Assembly (NCBI GenBank): GCA_016934315.1
Contig: JAFGSY010000007.1
Location: forward strand, 45,866 to 109,865
Direction of reading: 5' to 3'
DNA length: 64,000 nucleotides
Source of the DNA: Candidatus Anaeroferrophillus wilburensis
GTDB lineage: Bacteria > Desulfobacterota > Anaeroferrophillalia > Anaeroferrophillales > Anaeroferrophillaceae
Below the pieces are notes generated by a model that saw nothing but the letters and a program-made list of their open reading frames with translations, had not been told where the DNA came from and searched no databases. Shown piece by piece: positions 12,708 through 23,972 of the stretch. Both the position numbers and the translations under genes were made by a program. Position 1 is the first letter of the stretch; the number at the start of each line of letters is the position of its first letter.

Positions 12708-13313
12708 TTAATGATCAACCTCTTCCCACCCGGTAATCATCGCCTTGATGTATGATAGGAGGGTGCCTCCGGTGGTGCTCATATAGATATGCACGACCAG
12801 GAAAGCTACCAAAACAAAGGCCGTCAGGGTATGGATCAGGGCCACCGGCCGGAGGCTGCCATTGAAGAGGCCACCAGCCGGTAATTCATTGTAAAAATAG
12901 TACCATAAGCCGCTGAGAAACTGGACCGGCAGAATTATAACTTTCAGTTTCAGATAGACCAGCCGCTGCAGGGGATTCAATTTCTGCTTCCGGGTCTTCC
13001 GGTGGGGATGTGTTTCCCCTTTGAAAATTCCCACGAGGTAGTAGCGGATCACCTGGACAAGGTTGTCCATGGTGGGCATGTACTGGCGCCATTCACCAGT
13101 GGTCAGATGCCAGAAGATGGCAAACACGGTCAGCCCAAGGACAAGCCAGGCAGCATACAGGTGGACCATGTGGGCTCTGGCAAACCCCATCAAGGTAAAC
13201 AGGCCATGAATTTCAAAACCGGTTGCCAGCAGAAGAAAAATCAGGATCGATTGCAACCAGTGCCAGAAACGCTCAAAACGGGCATAGAGATGTATTTTTT
13301 TCTTCATGCTCAT
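12708..13313 (-). CDS. Membrane cytochrome b (b561/thiosulfate-reductase type)
   Basis: The 201-residue protein has four hydrophobic helices (about 18-40, 48-70, 120-142, 158-182). Histidines lie in RFWHWLQS, RAHMVHLYAAW and VVHIYMSTTG, as in di-heme cytochrome b subunits that pass quinol electrons to periplasmic reductases. Its ATG overlaps the stop of the octaheme cytochrome gene (ATGA at 13310-13313), so both are probably made together and interact. The expected role is quinol oxidation feeding the octaheme subunit, which has its own C-terminal membrane helix. The exact b-type subfamily is not certain. The operon ends here at a strong terminator. Confidence 0.85.
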   Translation of the reverse strand: MSMKKKIHLYARFERFWHWLQSILIFLLLATGFEIHGLFTLMGFARAHMVHLYAAWLVLGLTVFAIFWHLTTGEWRQYMPTMDNLVQVIRYYLVGIFKGETHPHRKTRKQKLNPLQRLVYLKLKVIILPVQFLSGLWYYFYNELPAGGLFNGSLRPVALIHTLTAFVLVAFLVVHIYMSTTGGTLLSYIKAMITGWEEVDH

Positions 13314-14929
13314 TGCTCCTCTCGCCGGCGGCGCAGAATTCTCATGGTCCCGTGGGCGATCACGCCAGCGAGGCTGAGGAGTACCAGCACCACGCCCAGG
13401 AGATCCAGGACGGTAGATTTATCCCGACCGGGAAGATAGAAGCCGCCCAAGCTGGCCAGGCGGCCTTCGCGACGGTGGCAGTCGGCACACGGGAGGGATT
13501 CCTCCTTGGGGGCAACCATATGGGTAATGGGCCAGAACATTTCCGTTTCAACGAAACCGATCTGACCGCTGAAAGCGGCCTGGGCTTCCGCCATCCCTGC
13601 TTTGACCGATTGTTCCCAGTCATAGTCAGCCCAGTAGGCGCCGCTGCCTTTCTTACCGAAGAGCTTGGGAATTGCCAGGGTCTTGTTCACCGGATCATAC
13701 ACCTGTTTCCCCCGGTAAAATTTAAACGGGAAAATTCGCGCCCCAGGATCATCATAGCTTCCCTGGGGCTGATTCAACCGCACTGGTTGTTGATCATCTA
13801 TGACATCAAGCAAATCAACATACTTCATGTTGCCGTTATACCAGACATAGGTTGGCACCACATCTTTCGCCCAGCGCATATCTCCCTTTTTGCTGTGATA
13901 GGTGACATTCCCGGCCCCATCTTTCTCCACCACCACGTTGCCTTCGGCATCAAAGCGGCCGGCCGTCGACCAGTCCCACCACATTTTGGTATATACACCG
14001 CCACGGGCATAGCGGGGAATATGGCAGGTCTGGCAGGCCACTTTGTCCGTATGATCGTTGAGTTTTTTATTTTTTTTATGGGGAGTGGCACTGTGACAGG
14101 ATTCACAGGCCATGCGATTGCCATAATCATCGGGCAGTGCCAACTGACGTCTTACCGGCGCCGGCGTCGCATAGTAGCGGCCGGCAATATCATGGTTAAT
14201 CGTGGTATGGCAGGCGGTGCAGTTAAACTTTCCCCCTTTGGCCGCCATATGAACATCGAGCCGTTTATCGGCTTTCAGCAACGATGAATCAAGATCTCCG
14301 TGTTTGACACCGTCACCGCCACCACCGTAAAAATGACAAGCGCCGCAGTTCTCTCCCCTTGGCCGCCCCACCAGCTGGGCAACCTCAGAAAGATTCACCG
14401 GCTTGAAGACCCTGGCGCCGAACTTCTTCTCTTCATAGGCCGGGTGACCGCAATCGGTGGGATATTTTTCATAGGTGCCGGTGGTATCGTGGCAGACCAG
14501 ACAATCAACATTTTCTTCAATGGTAAAATCAAAATGCCTGTCTTTCCACCCATATCCTGCATGGCAGCTGGTGCACCTGCACCAGTTGGATATCGGGGTA
14601 ATTCAGAAGCTGTTGAGGGTGTACGCCTTGCCAAAAGCCTGCTGTTCCTGACCTTTTTTCTTGCCCCAGGTCCAGTGGATGGTGTGCTGCACCTGCTTGG
14701 CTGCTTCCGTATGGCAGCCTAGACAGGCTCTGGTGACCTCCGGGCCCCGCTTGAATTCTTCTTTCAACTGCTTGAATTTCCGGTGATCTGCCGTTGGCAG
14801 AGGAACTTTTTTCAACAGCTCATTACCGCCAGGCGGGGGATCGGAAAGCTCCTGCGCCACCACCATCATTGGCAAACTGAACAGCGGTAAAGCCATAACA
14901 ATAAAAAGAAGAAACGTTCTTTTTTTCAT
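13310..14929 (-). CDS. Octaheme cytochrome c, tetrathionate-reductase (Otr) family, with in-frame TGA as selenocysteine
   Basis: Conventional reading gives a 108-residue fragment ending at TGA 14605-14603 and a separate downstream ORF. The frame does not change: translation through the TGA runs without another stop to 13310, giving 539 residues. It has a signal peptide (about 1-26), eight CxxCH hemes (Cys at 69, 119, 143, 195, 237, 275, 299, 481) and a C-terminal membrane helix (about 507-528). Across the TGA the text reads TLNSFUITPISNWCRCTSCH, matching the Otr family's conserved NNFC segment, so Sec109 replaces that Cys. From memory, Shewanella Otr has an active-site Cys here plus an Asp/Lys pair; Asp206 and Lys209 (GGDGVKHGD) fit that pair. 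Otr-family enzymes reduce tetrathionate and, in vitro, nitrite or hydroxylamine; the substrate here is unknown. It overlaps arsR upstream and cytochrome b downstream by ATGA. Confidence 0.88.
14568..14585 (-). promoter_or_regulatory. Bacterial SECIS-like hairpin in the octaheme cytochrome gene
   Basis: On the coding strand CTGGTGCAGGTGCACCAG forms a 7-bp stem with loop AGGT (or 8 bp with loop GG), starting 17 bases after the TGA. Stem length, a G in the first two loop positions and spacing fit the bacterial SECIS pattern. The apex closely resembles, as I remember it, the E. coli fdhF element bound by SelB. Confidence 0.8.
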
Positions 14930-15267
14930 CTCAATGACCCCCGTTTTTTGAGTTCTTCAAGCAAGCCTTCCCGCACCGCCTGAATCCCCAGCAGAAACTT
15001 CTGGTTGGCAATCCGATAATAGATGGTTCTCCCATCCCGCCGGGTAGCGACCGCCCCCTGGTCGCGCATCAGACGGAGATGCTGGGAAACATTAGCGAGC
15101 GAAATATCCAATCCCGCGGCCAGCTGCGTTACCGTCTTTTCCCCGTCACCCAGCAAATCCATAATCTGCAGGCGAATTGGCGAGGAAAAGATGGTGCAGA
15201 ATGATGCGTGCAGTTGAAAAACATCGATGCCGATCACTGTCTCTGCTTTGATGCCTGCCTGATTCAT
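14926..15267 (-). CDS. ArsR/SmtB-family transcriptional regulator
   Basis: The 113-residue winged-helix protein reads FSSPIRLQIMDLL, TVTQLAAGLDISLANVSQHL (recognition helix) and RRDGRTIYYRI (wing), a standard ArsR fold. It has a single Cys (Cys24) and lacks the ELCVCDL metal-binding box, so it is unlikely to be a classic arsenic or cadmium sensor. A one-Cys or cofactor-based redox, sulfur or NO response is possible but unproven. It is the first gene of the octaheme cytochrome operon, its stop overlapping the next ATG. AAAGGAAATCA provides the ribosome site. AT-rich repeats upstream are candidate operators, so it probably autoregulates the operon. Confidence 0.9.
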   Translation of the reverse strand: MNQAGIKAETVIGIDVFQLHASFCTIFSSPIRLQIMDLLGDGEKTVTQLAAGLDISLANVSQHLRLMRDQGAVATRRDGRTIYYRIANQKFLLGIQAVREGLLEELKKRGSLR

Positions 15268-17016: not shown

Positions 17017-17160
17017 AGCTTCAGACACGCCATGAAGGCGTGCAGAAACATGGTCACCTGCCGGGTGAGAACACTCGTACCGGCTGCTTCTCACGAAAAT
17101 AATAAACCACGAAGGTTCTAACAAGCGTCACTGTTGGTTAGGTCCTGGCGTGGTTTTTTT
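17017..17160 (+). promoter_or_regulatory. Structured 5' leader ending in a terminator-like hairpin (attenuator or riboswitch candidate)
   Basis: Three hairpins follow the predicted start: CACGCC/GGCGTG (17026-17042), GCCGG/CCGGC with an inner GAG/CTC (17060-17084), and a compound stem ACCACG/CGTGGT (17106-17154) with inner CTAAC/GTTAG, followed at once by seven T (to 17160). The last looks like an intrinsic terminator 58 bases before the receptor ATG, so expression may be controlled by read-through. I could not match it to cobalamin, TPP, Moco or other riboswitch consensus known to me. Confidence 0.5.
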
Positions 17161-17218
17161 ATGCCCGCCTCCTGATGACCCCGGATATTTCTCCCATCCC
17201 CTTTCCAAGGAGGTCCCG

Positions 17219-19477
17219 ATGAACAGAACATGGCTCCTTACGGCTAGCGTTTTATTCCTGCTGTGCTCCACCACCCCTGGCACAACCAGGGCTGCTGATG
17301 CCGACCAACCCCGGCTGTTGACCATGGACACCATTACCGTCGAGGAAAAAATCATCTCCCCCACCAAACAGGAAGGCGACCTGCTGCACACCGGCAGCAT
17401 GGTCACCACTGCCGGCATGGAACTTTCCGGAGCCGCGGGCTTGAACAGCGTTTTTAAAGCCCTGGATTTGCTGCCGGGAATCAATACCGAGCTCCAGGAC
17501 CCCTTTGGCATTGCCAGTAAAAGCGTCCGCATCCGGGGTGTTCAGAGCCTCTTTGCCGGCATGACCGTTGAAGGATTGCCCAATTACGGGATTATGCCCA
17601 TCGGCCCCCGGGATGACATCTATGACATGGAAAACATGGAATCGATCGGCCTCTATAAAGGATCGACGCCCCTCAACCTGGGGACCGGTTCCGGCAACCG
17701 TGGGGGCACCATCGCCTTAACTTACCGGCGGCCGGCAGATGAATTTCAAGCGGATCTCCGGCAACAGTTCGGCAGCTTTGACGCCCACCGGACCTTTTTC
17801 CGCCTGGACTCCGGGATACTGCCAACTGGCACCAGCCTCTTCGGCTCCTATTCCTATGCGGAAGTCAACAAATGGAAAGGGGCCGGTGACCTTGGCCCCC
17901 GGGAGCATGTTAACATCGGACTCAGCCAGGAGCTGGGCAGCAGGGTAACCATGGAGTTGTTTTTCAATTATAACGACGTGGAGCGTCATGATTTCAAACC
18001 CCTGACCTATGGGGAAGCCGATCAGATCAAGGATTTCTACCGTTCTGATTACCTTGAGAATCTAACTGGATATCCGGCCGCCGATGTCAACTACTATGAC
18101 TACCATCGCGGCGACTACCAGAATACCGAGATGCAGGCAAATCTGGCCTTTTCCCTGCACCCCGGCCACAGCCTGACCTGCAAACCCTACTACAGCAGTG
18201 AAGAGGGCTTCATCCTTGATGGCAAGGCTGACAAGGTCCGGGATCTGGAGCGCTACGGGATAACCACCGAATACCTCGGACAGTTCGGCCAGTTCAAGCT
18301 CACCGCCGGCTACTGGTATGAATCCCATGATCTGGAAAAATATGTCCGTGCCAATACCATCACCGCCACGGACCGCATTTACAGCAGCTGGAAATACCTG
18401 GGGGAAAACCACGGCAACGGTGAAATTCACAGCCCCTATCTGCAGGTAGCTCGACGTTTCGGCAAGCTCACCTGTCAGGCAGGCCTTAAGTATTTTTCCT
18501 ATACCGAACCGGCCAGTACCGCCTACCGGGGCAGTGCTGTCGGCGGCACACCCTCGTCCTACGAACAGGCATTAAATAATAATCTGGGTGAAGATCCTGA
18601 ACTGAGCCTTGATGAATTCACTTTCGAAGAATGGCTGCCCAGTTTTGCGATAGGCTGCCAGCTGACCCCTGAGCTGGAGGTTTATGCAAACTACGGCCGC
18701 AACTACATGCGGCCCTATGCCTACATGCCGGTCATTACTCTTTATACCTATATGGAAAAAGACAGTACCGGAGCGATTACCGTAAACAACCGGGAAAAAT
18801 TCCGGGCCGCCGGCCTGACCCTGCAGGATATTTTTGATGACTGGAAGATGGAAACCTCCGACAACATTGACGTTGGCTTGCGCTATTTCAGCAATAGCTT
18901 TGAAATCCATCCGGCGCTCTTTTTTGCCAAGCACCACGATTTGCTGACCGTTGCCTATGACCCGCTGGTTGGCCTCAATTACCACCAGAACGTCGGCGAT
19001 GTAACGACGATCGGCGCCGAGGTGGAACTCAACCTCTACCCTACTGACAACCTGATCGTCTATATCAACCCCAGCTACACCAGGATGCGTTTTGATGACG
19101 ATCTGAGCCAAGGGGGAGGCATCCTGGCCATCGGAGGCAAACAGCTGCCCGACACACCCGAGCTGCTGTTCAAAACCGGCCTGCTCTACACCTACAACAA
19201 CCTGGAAATCGCCCCAACCTTCAAATATGTGGGCCGGCGCTACGGCGACCCGCAGAACGAGCAGCCCATCTCTCCCCATGGAATCGTCGATCTTGCCATC
19301 AGCTACACAAGGAAAGATGTTTTTTCCCTGCGGGAAGCCCGGGCAAGCCTGGCGATCAGCAATCTCTTTGATGAAAAATATGTCGGCACCATCACCGCCT
19401 GGGATGATGGCAGCGGCACTGCCTACTACGCTGGCGCCCCTTTTACTGCCGTCTTCAGCCTTGGAGGAACTTTCTGA
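17219..19477 (+). CDS. TonB-dependent outer-membrane receptor
   Basis: The 752-residue receptor brings a bulky or scarce nutrient across the outer membrane using TonB energy. From the ATG at 17219, with AAGGAGGT 5 bases upstream, it has a signal peptide ending near TTRAADA and a TonB-box-like DTITVEEK. A plug domain follows (SVRIRGVQSLFAGMTVEGLP and LYKGSTPLNLGTGSGNRGG), then a 22-strand-type barrel rich in aromatic strands, ending in the terminal Phe expected for outer-membrane proteins (FSLGGTF). The open frame extends upstream to 17150, inside the leader hairpin, and is not the true start. The linked FecB/BtuF-type genes point to a siderophore, corrinoid or metal-complex substrate; the sequence does not decide. 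Confidence 0.95.
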   Translation: MNRTWLLTASVLFLLCSTTPGTTRAADADQPRLLTMDTITVEEKIISPTKQEGDLLHTGSMVTTAGMELSGAAGLNSVFKALDLLPGINTELQDPFGIASKSVRIRGVQSLFAGMTVEGLPNYGIMPIGPRDDIYDMENMESIGLYKGSTPLNLGTGSGNRGGTIALTYRRPADEFQADLRQQFGSFDAHRTFFRLDSGILPTGTSLFGSYSYAEVNKWKGAGDLGPREHVNIGLSQELGSRVTMELFFNYNDVERHDFKPLTYGEADQIKDFYRSDYLENLTGYPAADVNYYDYHRGDYQNTEMQANLAFSLHPGHSLTCKPYYSSEEGFILDGKADKVRDLERYGITTEYLGQFGQFKLTAGYWYESHDLEKYVRANTITATDRIYSSWKYLGENHGNGEIHSPYLQVARRFGKLTCQAGLKYFSYTEPASTAYRGSAVGGTPSSYEQALNNNLGEDPELSLDEFTFEEWLPSFAIGCQLTPELEVYANYGRNYMRPYAYMPVITLYTYMEKDSTGAITVNNREKFRAAGLTLQDIFDDWKMETSDNIDVGLRYFSNSFEIHPALFFAKHHDLLTVAYDPLVGLNYHQNVGDVTTIGAEVELNLYPTDNLIVYINPSYTRMRFDDDLSQGGGILAIGGKQLPDTPELLFKTGLLYTYNNLEIAPTFKYVGRRYGDPQNEQPISPHGIVDLAISYTRKDVFSLREARASLAISNLFDEKYVGTITAWDDGSGTAYYAGAPFTAVFSLGGTF

Positions 19478-19532
19478 TTGCCGGCAACGCCCGCCTGCTG
19501 ATAGTTAACGCAAGGATAACCGCAGGTTTCCG

Positions 19533-20693
19533 ATGCCATCACCAGGACAAACAACCATTTCTTACCAGCGGATGCACCTGATGCGAATCACTAGAAAAAC
19601 CTGCTGCCATGTTATAGCCGTCCTGGTGCTGCTGACGCTTTTCTGCGGACCAACCGCAGCGTCAGCAAACCTGGAAGGACGGCTGGTTACCGACCTGGGC
19701 GGCCGCACCGTTGTCATCCCGGAACAGATTGATCGACTGGTGGCCCTTGGTCCCGGGGCCCTGCGGCTGATTACCTATCTCCAGGCCCTGGACAAAGTGG
19801 TTGGCATCGAGCAGATTGAGCGGCAGGAGCTCCCTTTCTATTTTCGTCCTTATTCAGTGGTGGCGGCAAAGCAGCTTGCCCACCGGCACATTGTTGCCCC
19901 CGGCGGCCCGGGAAAACTGCCAGACATGGAACAGCTCATAGCCTGTCGACCACAGGTCATCATCTGCATAGGCCTTGATCCCATGCAGGTGGAAAACCTG
20001 CAGCAAAAGACCAGGATTCCCACCATCATGGTCACCTATGGTGAACTTGGCGTCCTGCGCCAGGAAGTCATACAATCCCTGCGCCTGCTCGGTACCATTT
20101 TAGGCAAGGAAGACCGGGCTGATGAGCTCATCACCTTCATTGAAATGGTGCAAAAGGAGTTGCACGATCGGGTAAAATCCGTTACACAACAGGAAAAGCC
20201 GACGGTTTATTTTGGCGGCATTGCCTATAAAGGGGCCCGGGGGCTTACCAGTACTGAAGCCAACTATCTCCCCGGCAGCATGGTTAAGGCACGTAATGTT
20301 GTCGATGCCGCGAAGCATGACAGCCATCTGTTTATCGATCCGGAACAGCTTATCTGCTGGAACCCGGAAGTAATTTTTTTTGACATTACCAGCGCCCCGG
20401 TCATCATGCCGGATTTCAACCGGAACAGCAGCTTCTACCACCTGCTGAAAGCCGTGAAAAACGGCAGGGTATTTACCCTGCTGCCCTACAACCAATACAA
20501 CACCAATATTGAAATTGCCCTTATTAATGCATTTTTCATTGGCAAAACGCTCTATCCATTCCAGTTTGCCGACATTACCATGGATGAAAAAAGGAGCCAG
20601 ATTTTCCAGTTTTTTCTCGGCAATCCCGGACCTGTCAACCTACCTGTCGACCCATCTTTTCAACTCACCCGTTTTGGGTTTGCCAACAACTAA
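19533..20693 (+). CDS. Periplasmic binding protein of FecCD/BtuCD-type ABC transporter
   Basis: The protein should pick up the substrate delivered by the receptor and hand it to the permease. Its class III binding-protein fold is seen in the DLGGRTVVIPEQIDRLVALG start, the PDMEQLIACRPQVIIC strand-helix and the long linker, ending in FRNS-like binding regions. The ATG at 19533 has no good ribosome site. ATG 19581 (MRITRKTCCHVIAVLVLL) would give a normal signal peptide and may be the real start. The YKGARGLTSTEANYLPG block is reminiscent of iron-complex or molybdate-type binders (MolA-like), which I cannot separate here. Confidence 0.9.
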   Translation: MPSPGQTTISYQRMHLMRITRKTCCHVIAVLVLLTLFCGPTAASANLEGRLVTDLGGRTVVIPEQIDRLVALGPGALRLITYLQALDKVVGIEQIERQELPFYFRPYSVVAAKQLAHRHIVAPGGPGKLPDMEQLIACRPQVIICIGLDPMQVENLQQKTRIPTIMVTYGELGVLRQEVIQSLRLLGTILGKEDRADELITFIEMVQKELHDRVKSVTQQEKPTVYFGGIAYKGARGLTSTEANYLPGSMVKARNVVDAAKHDSHLFIDPEQLICWNPEVIFFDITSAPVIMPDFNRNSSFYHLLKAVKNGRVFTLLPYNQYNTNIEIALINAFFIGKTLYPFQFADITMDEKRSQIFQFFLGNPGPVNLPVDPSFQLTRFGFANN

Positions 20694-20714
20694 TTGGCCA
20701 TAAACGTTGGAGGA

Positions 20715-21788
20715 ATGCTCTCCTTGCACGACCATCTTCCAGCCCGGTATGGCACCTATATCAGGAAAAAAATCTGGTTTGGCCTGGCTCTTATCCTGAT
20801 CCTGATTGTCAGCACGCTGCTCTCCCTTGGAACCGGCACCTACCCCATTACCTTCCAGGAGATACTCTCCCTACTGCACGGCGGCACGGACGGCATTGTG
20901 GGCCATGTTCTTCTGCATATCCGGCTGCCGCGCACCTGTGCCGGCTTGGTCGCCGGCGCCTGCCTGGGGATGGCGGGTAGCATCATGCAGAATGTCATTA
21001 AAAACCCTTTGGCATCTCCTTTCACCCTTGGGGTGTCTCAAGGTGCCGCTTTCGGGGCGGCCTTCGCCATTATCATCCTGGGAGCCGGCAATCTTCAGTT
21101 CAGTGGCTCGGGACCGGCAATCATTACCTCTCCTTACCTGATGATCAGCGCCGCCTTTTTTGGTTCCCTGATCACCGTTATCACGCTGGTACTCTTGTCT
21201 TCATTGCGCGGTCTGAGTCCCGAATCACTGATTTTGGCCGGTGTCGCCCTTAGTTCATTTTTCGGCGCGGCAACCATGCTGCTGCAGTATTTCGCCACCG
21301 ACATTCAGGTGGCAGCCTCGGTCTTCTGGACCTTTGGTGACCTGGGGAAAGCCCAGTGGCAACAGGTCAGCCTGATGGCCGTGCTGATGATTGGCGCTTT
21401 CGGCTACTTTTACCACAACCGCTGGCACTACAACGCTATGGTCTGGGGCGATGATGCGGCCCACAGCCTGGGGGTCAACGTCACCGCTTTGCGCCTGATC
21501 AGCCTGGTGGTTGCCTCACTTATCTCTTCGGTCACCATTGCCTTCCTGGGCATTATCGGCTTTATTGGCCTTATTGCCCCCCACCTCATGCGCATGGTCA
21601 TTGGCCAGGATAATCGTTTTCTCCTTCCCTATGCGGCTTTTGCCGGAGCCTCGCTGCTGCTTATTTCTGATATCCTAGCCCGACAGCTTTTGGCTCCAAT
21701 CACTTTACCGGTGGGAATTCTCACCTCATTTGCCGGCGTTCCCCTGTTTCTTTATCTGCTGATCCGCCACAAAGAGGCAGGCAGATGA
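20715..21788 (+). CDS. ABC transporter permease, FecCD family
   Basis: This 357-residue inner-membrane protein has about ten helices. FecCD hallmarks are LPRTCAGLVAGACLGMAGSI, NPLASPFTLGVSQGAAFGA and the coupling region GFIGLIAPHLMRMVIGQDNR. The start is uncertain: TTG 20694 abuts the previous stop, ATG 20715 has GGAGG only one base away, and TTG 20724 has better spacing. The C-terminus overlaps the ATPase ATG (ATGA at 21785-21788). It forms the importer channel together with the neighbouring binding protein and ATPase; the substrate is a metal complex or corrinoid by family. Confidence 0.94.
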   Translation: MLSLHDHLPARYGTYIRKKIWFGLALILILIVSTLLSLGTGTYPITFQEILSLLHGGTDGIVGHVLLHIRLPRTCAGLVAGACLGMAGSIMQNVIKNPLASPFTLGVSQGAAFGAAFAIIILGAGNLQFSGSGPAIITSPYLMISAAFFGSLITVITLVLLSSLRGLSPESLILAGVALSSFFGAATMLLQYFATDIQVAASVFWTFGDLGKAQWQQVSLMAVLMIGAFGYFYHNRWHYNAMVWGDDAAHSLGVNVTALRLISLVVASLISSVTIAFLGIIGFIGLIAPHLMRMVIGQDNRFLLPYAAFAGASLLLISDILARQLLAPITLPVGILTSFAGVPLFLYLLIRHKEAGR

Positions 21789-22582
21789 CCTTGAAGATCA
21801 AACATCTCTGTTTTGCCTACGGCCCTTCTCAGATGGTGCTTGAAGACATTGCCTTCACCACCCCCCCCGGCACCCTGGTTGCCATTCTCGGCACCAATGG
21901 TTCAGGCAAGTCAACCCTGCTGAAAAACATCAACCGGATTCTCAAACCCCAAGGCGGGACAGTTGCCGTTAATGGGATTGAGGTGGCCTCCATGAGCCGC
22001 AAGGAGGTTGCTCGGCAGATGGGCTACATGCCGCAGAAATCAGCCGGAGTTCAATGTACGGTTTTTGAGGCAGTCCTGTTGGGACGCAAGGCCCGGTTCC
22101 GCTGGGAAGTCAGTCGGGATGATATTCTTGCAGTGGAGAGGATTCTCAAGTTGATTAAACTGGACGGCCTGGCTATGCGCCAGACAACCGAACTCAGCGG
22201 CGGCGAGCTGCAAAAAGTGATTATAGCCCGGGCCCTGGCCCAGGAACCACGGGTTCTCCTCTTGGATGAACCGATCAACCATCTGGACCTCATCAACCAG
22301 CTCGATGTCATGCGGCTGCTGCAAACCCTCACCAGAGAGCTGCAGCTGATCTCCCTGGTGGTCACCCATGACCTCAACAGCGCCCTACGCTTTGCCGGCC
22401 GATTTCTTTTCCTCAGGGGAGGGCATCTGTTTGCTTATGGTGATCGCACTATCGTAACCCCGGCAACCATAAAAGCAGTCTTCAACCTGGACGTAGTAAT
22501 CGAAACCGTTGCCGGCATTCCCGTGATTGTCCCCATCAGCCAAGACCTGGAAACCCCTTCCCCGGGTCATGACCATACATAA
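21785..22582 (+). CDS. ABC transporter ATPase for metal-complex uptake
   Basis: The 265-residue nucleotide-binding subunit shows Walker A GTNGSGKST, Q-loop YMPQK, signature ELSGGELQ, Walker B VLLLDEP and H-loop VTHDLN, all intact. It overlaps the permease stop by four bases. The C-terminus ends in a His-containing PSPGHDHT tail, which could be incidental. It powers the importer formed with the two upstream genes. The next gene, a MATE exporter, starts 5 bases after this stop, so the operon continues. Confidence 0.95.
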   Translation: MTLKIKHLCFAYGPSQMVLEDIAFTTPPGTLVAILGTNGSGKSTLLKNINRILKPQGGTVAVNGIEVASMSRKEVARQMGYMPQKSAGVQCTVFEAVLLGRKARFRWEVSRDDILAVERILKLIKLDGLAMRQTTELSGGELQKVIIARALAQEPRVLLLDEPINHLDLINQLDVMRLLQTLTRELQLISLVVTHDLNSALRFAGRFLFLRGGHLFAYGDRTIVTPATIKAVFNLDVVIETVAGIPVIVPISQDLETPSPGHDHT

Positions 22583-22586
22583 GGCC

Positions 22587-23972
22587 ATGCCCAACAACCG
22601 CGTAGAAGAATTCAGCCAACACCCGCGAAGGGCCCTTTTCAAACTGGCCCTGCCGACCATCACAGCCATGGCGGTCCAAACCACCTATAATATGGTTGAT
22701 ACCGCTTTTGTCGGCCGGCTGGGCACCGAATCGCTGGCCGCCCTGACCTTTTCATTCCCGCTCTACTTCATCCTGGTGTCCATCAACTCAGGCATGGGGG
22801 TAGGATTGAACTCCCTCATCTCCCGCCAACTGGGGGCAAAAAAGGATCAGGAAGCAGAAAACAGTGCCTGCCATGGTCTACTCATCGCCCTGCTGACCGC
22901 CGGGCTGCTGTTTATCGCCATGTTTTACGGCGCCAGCCCCTTGTTCAAGCTGCTCGGCGCCCAGGACACCCCACTGCATCTCGGGGTAACCTACATGAAG
23001 ATCATTGTCATTGGAAATTTCTTCATGTTTCCTGCCTATGCGCTGCACAGTCTCTTTACCGCCCAGGGGGACACCATAACGCCGATGAAGGTACAGATTT
23101 TCTCCCTGCTGGTGAATATCACTCTCGATCCATTCTTTATTTTTGTCCTTAAGCTGGGGGTTCCGGGCGCGGCCATTGCCACCCTTATTGCCCAGGCATG
23201 CGCCCTGCTCCTGTTTATGATCGCCTTGCGGCGGCGGTCCGTACTGAAAATATCCTGGTCCCGGTTTTTCTATCGCTTCAGGATTATATCTGAGCTGGCA
23301 ACCGTGGGAATTCCTGCCAGCTTGACCATGCTCCTGATGGCATTCTATATCATGTTTCTTAACCGATTCATGGCTCATTTCGGCACCGAGTATGTCGCCG
23401 CTTTCGGCATGGCATCTCGACTGGAGAGCGCGGTTGTCATGCCCCTGGTGGCCTCATCCATCGCCCTGCTCACCCTGACCGGCATGTTCTACGGTGCCAG
23501 CCGCTATACCATCCTCAAAGAAACCATCCATTTTGCCATGGGGATGAATATTCTCTATGCGCTGGCAGTCGGCTCCCTCTTTTTTCTCTTCCCCACCAGC
23601 TTTCTCCGGGTCTTCACCAAGGATCAGCACCTGCTTGACATTGGTGCCGCCTATATGAGAATTGAAGTATTCACTTTCCCCCTGATGGCGGTCAATATGA
23701 CCGCCAATAGAGCCATGCAGGGAATGGGGTTGGGGCTGCCTGGCATTACCATCAATTTGGTCAGAATTTTTGTCGTTGCCATTCCCCTTGCCTATATATT
23801 CGTTTATCTGTTCAATCTCAGTTATCTCTGGGTTGCGGTTGCCATGGTCAGCGGCGGCCTGGCGGCCAACCTGACCGCGTTGACTTGGCTACGTTCAACA
23901 TTTAATGGCTTGGGGACTCATCGGAAGAAAAACGGCCGGCGGCATTCAGGAGATGGAGAACAGCAACGCTAG
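22587..23972 (+). CDS. MATE-family efflux transporter
   Basis: The 461-residue protein has twelve hydrophobic segments in two halves. The MATE opening is ALPTITAMAVQTTYNMVDTAFVGRLG, shown here as family text around residues 20-45. MATE proteins export organic cations or metabolites using Na+ or H+. I take the ATG at 22587, just after the ATPase stop; ATG 22569 is an in-frame alternative overlapping it. Lying in an uptake operon, it might export a self-made chelator or simply be cotranscribed; this is a guess from position. The last ~15 residues are basic (HRKKNGRRHSG). Confidence 0.92.
   Translation: MPNNRVEEFSQHPRRALFKLALPTITAMAVQTTYNMVDTAFVGRLGTESLAALTFSFPLYFILVSINSGMGVGLNSLISRQLGAKKDQEAENSACHGLLIALLTAGLLFIAMFYGASPLFKLLGAQDTPLHLGVTYMKIIVIGNFFMFPAYALHSLFTAQGDTITPMKVQIFSLLVNITLDPFFIFVLKLGVPGAAIATLIAQACALLLFMIALRRRSVLKISWSRFFYRFRIISELATVGIPASLTMLLMAFYIMFLNRFMAHFGTEYVAAFGMASRLESAVVMPLVASSIALLTLTGMFYGASRYTILKETIHFAMGMNILYALAVGSLFFLFPTSFLRVFTKDQHLLDIGAAYMRIEVFTFPLMAVNMTANRAMQGMGLGLPGITINLVRIFVVAIPLAYIFVYLFNLSYLWVAVAMVSGGLAANLTALTWLRSTFNGLGTHRKKNGRRHSGDGEQQR

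Follow-up and report, generated by a model that had tools for sequence, protein, structure and literature searches.

A predicted selenocysteine at the conserved cysteine position of an octaheme c-type cytochrome of the Otr family

Octaheme c-type cytochromes of the Otr family have been described as reducing tetrathionate, nitrite, and hydroxylamine (PMC11024163, PMC6449678), and purified BOGUAY_2386 reduces tetrathionate faster than nitrite (PMC6449678). The second heme of Otr is catalytic and is ligated by a lysine (PMC11024163). A selenocysteine (Sec) form of the family is already in print as one line of a 2026 review table, which limits the novelty of what we report: TIGR04315, the same protein family as ours, is entered there with one Sec, annotated in GenBank under WP_331457571.1, and its motif is given as not available (PMC13188914). 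In the accessible part of that review, the entry also comes without a position, SECIS, distribution, cysteine pair, or mechanism. The same table names ExtKL (NF040886), a further multiheme c-type cytochrome, as a selenoprotein (PMC13188914). With both entries in the catalogue, the statement in our preliminary description that no Sec-containing multiheme reductase of this type had been described proved too strong. Like our protein, ExtKL is a c-type cytochrome with multiple hemes, and it is catalogued as a selenoprotein, but it belongs to a different family, NF040886 being absent among our protein's matches at E 0.001. There is also a Geobacter candidate, which we take to be probably ExtKL. According to the accessible part of the paper that describes this candidate, no SECIS was found after its TGA (PMC1914089). 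We further propose a likeness to TsdA, a diheme thiosulfate dehydrogenase/tetrathionate reductase in which a nucleophile at a c-type heme is proposed to attack tetrathionate; unlike our protein, TsdA has two hemes, and its cysteine ligates heme iron (PMC5146829). In the open-access PMC literature, as distinct from subscription papers and preprints, and as far as the accessible texts go (PMC2628731 and PMC1914089 included), we found no other paper treating Sec in the TIGR04315 family and no description of the Sec position, the SECIS, the scatter on the tree, or the cysteine pair presented here.

The locus lies in a window of 64,000 nucleotides (the whole stretch of DNA that was analyzed) from Candidatus Anaeroferrophillus wilburensis, and its features are collected in Table 1. 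With TGA read as Sec (U), the octaheme gene yields 539 residues followed by a TGA stop. This translation confirmed the preliminary description of a single frame with eight CxxCH motifs whose sole interruption is one internal TGA, at residue 109. The product matched TIGR04315 with 622.1 bits against a cut-off of 375 and aligned over residues 55 to 491 with Otr of Shewanella oneidensis (PDB 1SP3; E 9.5e-117), no other chain being among the matches listed by VIA-align. The eight CxxCH motifs and the 1SP3 fold both place the protein in the Otr family, as had been proposed. In positions counted along the aligned chain, U109 lies opposite Cys64 of 1SP3, which presumably lines the Otr active site, and D206 and K209 lie opposite D150 and K153, in keeping with the Asp/Lys pair recognized in the preliminary description; column 206 of the family alignment holds Asp in 127 rows. 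In the accessible literature text, we found no confirmation that the Otr cysteine is itself catalytic. Counted in the same way, the 1SP3 chain has Pro72 and Ala115 where our protein has C117 and C160, and, unlike our protein, it lacks a C-terminal membrane helix over the aligned region. The surroundings of heme 2 were poorly modeled in the predicted structure of the octaheme protein. Searches of the window returned no Rfam match at gathering scores and no tRNA with ARAGORN.

Table 1. Positions of the octaheme cytochrome gene, its predicted RNA and protein features, and the adjoining genes in the window
Feature	Position	Strand	Basis
Cytochrome b561-type gene (PF01292), ATGA overlap with the Otr stop, likely quinol-oxidizing partner	12708..13313	-	Pfam 83.8 bits
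Octaheme c-type cytochrome gene, Otr family (TIGR04315), predicted membrane-anchored selenoprotein	13310..14929	-	Translation, NCBIfam, 1SP3 alignment, model
C-terminal helix, residues 506-539, likely membrane anchor	13313..13414	-	Model secondary structure and confidence; hydrophobic by eye
K209, opposite the Lys ligating the second heme in Otr	14303..14305	-	Lys in 156/156 aligned rows
C160, likely disulfide partner of C117, TGC codon	14450..14452	-	Cys in the same 29 loci as C117, 0/125 others
CTSCH motif of the second heme (residues 119-123), with codons that form the 3' arm of the hairpin	14561..14575	-	Sequence
Predicted SECIS hairpin CTGGTGC-AGGT-GCACCAG, loop 14575-14578	14568..14585	-	7 bp, -11.1 kcal/mol
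C117, extra cysteine, TGC codon within the hairpin 5' arm	14579..14581	-	Cys in 29/32 TGA loci, 0/120 Cys loci
In-frame TGA, predicted Sec codon 109	14603..14605	-	Column with 120 Cys and 32 TGA among 154 loci
ArsR/SmtB-type regulator gene, ATGA overlap with the Otr start	14926..15267	-	NF033788 76.7 bits

To place the internal TGA in the family, we searched TIGR04315 in 99 relatives and in 395 genomes of the phylum, two overlapping sets, and added 80 loci from titled records, the best 80 of 115 relatives. Seven loci scoring below 250 (L044 to L049 and L187, of which L044 and L187 are one place) were dropped before counting, and L050, which gave no match, was left out of the column count. The alignment had 156 rows, 34 of them with TGA; because L197 and L203 are L033 and L034 cut twice, these rows represent 154 distinct loci, 32 with TGA. 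Column 109, ten residues ahead of the CTSCH motif of heme 2, is Cys at nearly all loci without TGA, as the preliminary description had predicted (counts in Table 1); it holds Trp at one locus (L142) and Thr at another (L186), and K209 is kept in both. Across the aligned core of the 154 loci (window residues 47 to 498), TGA was the only in-frame stop and always fell in column 109, where no TAA or TAG occurred. The TGA loci come from 31 genomes, and the search of relatives suggested in the preliminary description thus located the same TGA at 31 other loci. Four of the best 80 titled loci (L068 to L071) carry it, among them L070, titled Thermodesulfobacteriota, whose core is identical to that of a relative from the window's order. 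Both upstream and downstream of the TGA, 11 pairs of TGA genes had dN values much lower than dS in all cases where dS was computable. A Cys-type subgroup (L043, L166, L167, L177, L179, and L180) differs in that its second heme region is shifted (e.g., CLSCHPGWN) and additional residues precede the motif. Annotation easily overlooks the Sec form, since seven of the top 120 database hits start downstream of the UGA position. One of these, P0003, is the window's own protein, a 362-residue piece from a later start, and the other six (P0014, P0023, P0030, P0047, P0060, and P0095) look, from their sequences, like the pieces expected of cut Sec forms.

A bacterial SECIS is modeled with a loop of 3 to 9 nucleotides, a stem of 4 to 16 bp, a spacing of 16 to 37 nucleotides, a G in the first two loop positions, and -7.5 kcal/mol or lower (PMC13188914, Fig. 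2 legend). The hairpin predicted after our UGA agrees with this model, with 24 bases from the UGA to the loop, a loop of 4 (AGGT), and a stem of 7. Used with an unbulged stem, the model found a hairpin in 32 of 32 TGA genes and in none of 120 Cys genes. In 29 of the TGA genes, the hairpin is of one main type, a 7-bp stem in which TGGTGC/GCACCA stands on a C-G or T-A pair, with 24 bases from UGA to loop; its loop is AGGT in 26 genes and AGTT in 3, one G-U pair occurs in two genes, and covariation in the stem is slight because few stem pairs vary. The remaining three genes (L056, L057, and L148; group C) have a different hairpin, GCAACGA-GGC-TCGTTGC, which lies 20 bases from the UGA and barely reaches the -7.5 kcal/mol limit. 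In a looser count of the Cys genes at one of the two hairpin positions, all seven positions of the stem were paired in 1 of 120 and at least six in five. Among 435 seven-codon stretches of the TGA genes, the lowest synonymous divergence was that of the stretch starting at codon 115 (0.159; mean, 0.545), and in the Cys genes codons 114 to 120 were ordinary (0.504; mean, 0.526). Arg118, in the loop, is encoded by AGG in 26 of the 29 TGA genes with Arg there versus 2 of 78 Cys genes, and AGG accounts for 63 of the 609 other Arg codons in the TGA genes; Fisher P values for these codon counts overstate significance because the rows are related.

The genome that holds the window, which is 98% complete, has a tRNA-Sec (70.5 bits, anticodon tca) as well as selA, selB, and selD, all above cut-offs, and the check for selA, selB, selC, and selD proposed in the preliminary description found all four. 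Its selD (L018) contains an in-frame UGA of its own, in SGUAAKIGP. Of the other 30 TGA genomes, 27 have selB (28 of 31 with our own counted); selB was not found in G002, G005, and G019, in all of which tRNA-Sec is present, with selA in G002 and G019. Since selB is as common in the Cys-only genomes of the sample (38 of 39) as in the TGA genomes, the machinery has no discriminating power, and we abandoned selB as a test for TGA genes. From the gene set, the column, and the hairpin, we consider it very likely that UGA 109 is decoded as selenocysteine, via the predicted SECIS, by SelA, SelB, SelD, and tRNA-Sec; the Sec reading first proposed for this cytochrome is supported.

We next describe where Sec falls on a rapidly built maximum-likelihood tree with 102 rows, from which residues 100 to 124 and Cys rows more than 72% identical to a kept row were left out (68 of 120 Cys rows kept). 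The Sec rows stand in three places: group A, 25 rows with the window's own among them; group B, L156 to L159; and group C, among Cys rows. A single Sec clade was rejected (AU P, 8.7e-9). The tree needs five changes between Sec and Cys, four of which are forced by the starred branches. Sec and Cys rows exchange on the tree, in change counts that do not separate gain from loss.

Because the hairpin makes use of codons that spell the motif of the second heme, C117, eight residues downstream of Sec109, belongs to the hairpin code: its TGC lies in the 5' arm, and this arm is paired with TGC ACC AG from the heme 2 motif. Residue 117 is Cys throughout groups A and B, in the context NW-C-RCTSCH; in group C, where the hairpin is the other one, residues 117 and 160 are both Ala. 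All 29 loci with C117 have C160 as well. On the tree, each of the two cysteines requires two changes, joining groups A and B as one was rejected (P, 0.0065), and both residues were acquired jointly at two places. The window protein has no non-heme cysteines besides these two, which is also true of 17 of the 32 TGA proteins, and Cys109 is the sole non-heme cysteine in 78 of the 120 Cys proteins with eight motifs. A disulfide between C117 and C160 is likely. In the simplest reading, C117 was imposed by the hairpin, and C160 then joined it as disulfide partner. However, P0006, P0007, and P0018 (three of the 112 full-length sequences in the top 120 database hits) keep C117 and C160 together with Cys109, which argues against a purely RNA-driven pair. 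These three may be reversions from Sec, or the pair may be useful in itself, and we gave up the idea that C117 exists solely because of the RNA. An independent-pairs test of Sec against C117 had only four pairs, two agreeing and two not differing (P, 0.5), and so had no power. We hold tentatively, at a little short of an even chance, to the fuller proposal that a SECIS on the heme 2 codons TGC ACC AG forced C117 and that two separate lineages acquired C160 along with it, which would place a Sec-Cys-Cys trio at the Lys-ligated heme, with neither cysteine in the third lineage and its other hairpin. Six TGA proteins, some with and some lacking C117/C160, share a second pair of non-heme cysteines, in columns 90 and 252, and one more has C252 alone.

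For the neighboring genes, we ran tblastn (E 1e-4) with proteins of the window as queries, a search in which distant cytochrome b genes may be missed. A cytochrome b relative lies directly 3' of the Otr gene in 28 of 32 TGA loci and in 84 of the 116 Cys loci with room for it. An ArsR relative lies directly 5' in 16 of 30 TGA loci with room and in none of 113 such Cys loci. In the four group B loci, tblastn found neither relative adjoining Otr. The window's own genome has a single TIGR04315 match, and dsrA and NrfA were both without a match there, which leaves Otr as perhaps the principal enzyme of this type in that genome. Elsewhere in the window, a TonB-receptor-like gene, a BtuC/Fec-type ABC permease, and a MATE transporter are grouped at 17150-23972 on the plus strand.

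We think it probable that these observations have one explanation, in which Sec109, inserted via the SECIS, is a nucleophile at heme 2 acting on an S-S bond, with a b561 quinol route for electrons and a C117-C160 disulfide. The protein, with its eight c-type hemes, would be exported and anchored by its C-terminal helix. Quinol would be oxidized by the adjoining cytochrome b561, and electrons would then pass along the hemes to heme 2. Beside this second, Lys-ligated heme, Sec109 would open the S-S bond of tetrathionate or a similar compound, and the selenium-bound half would be released with heme electrons, by analogy with the TsdA cysteine. The C117-C160 disulfide would keep C117 off Sec109 and off heme attachment. 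We infer both the substrate and the closeness of Sec109 to heme 2 from analogy with the related enzymes.

Other readings of the TGA itself have little in their favor. If it were a real stop or an error, the locus would be a pseudogene, a product of missequencing, or two genes, and the database gene finder did keep only the 362-residue piece P0003. This is very improbable given a TGA at one column in 32 loci of 31 genomes, never replaced by TAA or TAG, a conserved hairpin, and purifying selection both upstream and downstream of the TGA; the shared column, the hairpin, and dN/dS ruled out the sequencing error, pseudogene, and two-gene readings alike. The TGA might instead be read as another amino acid, through tryptophan insertion or near-cognate read-through, and Trp does stand in the column at L142. 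Against this, TGA is the stop of both arsR and the Otr gene here, the Sec gene set is complete, and 120 of the 122 non-TGA loci have Cys. We rejected tryptophan, TGA being a normal stop in the same operon, and give decoding as any other amino acid practically no credence.

Two further explanations accept the same selenoprotein and differ in its work. In one, the main reaction at heme 2 would be reduction of nitrite, hydroxylamine, or some other small acceptor, and Sec would serve to tune or protect the site instead of attacking an S-S bond. The nitrite role is vacant in this genome, where NrfA had no match, but we know of no need for such a Cys or Sec residue in the pentaheme nitrite reductase family. 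Both substrates have been described for Otr-family enzymes (PMC11024163, PMC6449678), yet BOGUAY_2386 is faster on tetrathionate than on nitrite (PMC6449678), and we regard this role as rather doubtful. In the other, C117 and C160 would be a working dithiol that resolves the Sec109 adduct, a Sec-Cys-Cys relay by the heme, and the protein's need for C117 would have come first. That the pair supplies the sole non-heme cysteines of so many TGA proteins would fit a relay, and the three full-length database relatives with Cys109 indicate that the pair is possible without a Sec to demand the hairpin. However, group C has Sec without the pair and with another hairpin, the pair is absent from all 120 Cys loci, and the three Cys109 cases may be recent reversions from Sec; we consider a working dithiol unlikely. 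Our preference stays with Sec109 as the nucleophile and C117-C160 as a disulfide.

If a selenol does lie beside a catalytic c-type heme, the role of the lone Otr cysteine becomes testable by natural comparison of Sec and Cys forms. The family may also show an RNA structure in a coding region dictating a protein residue and drawing a second change 43 residues away, with the third lineage, group C, as a natural control.
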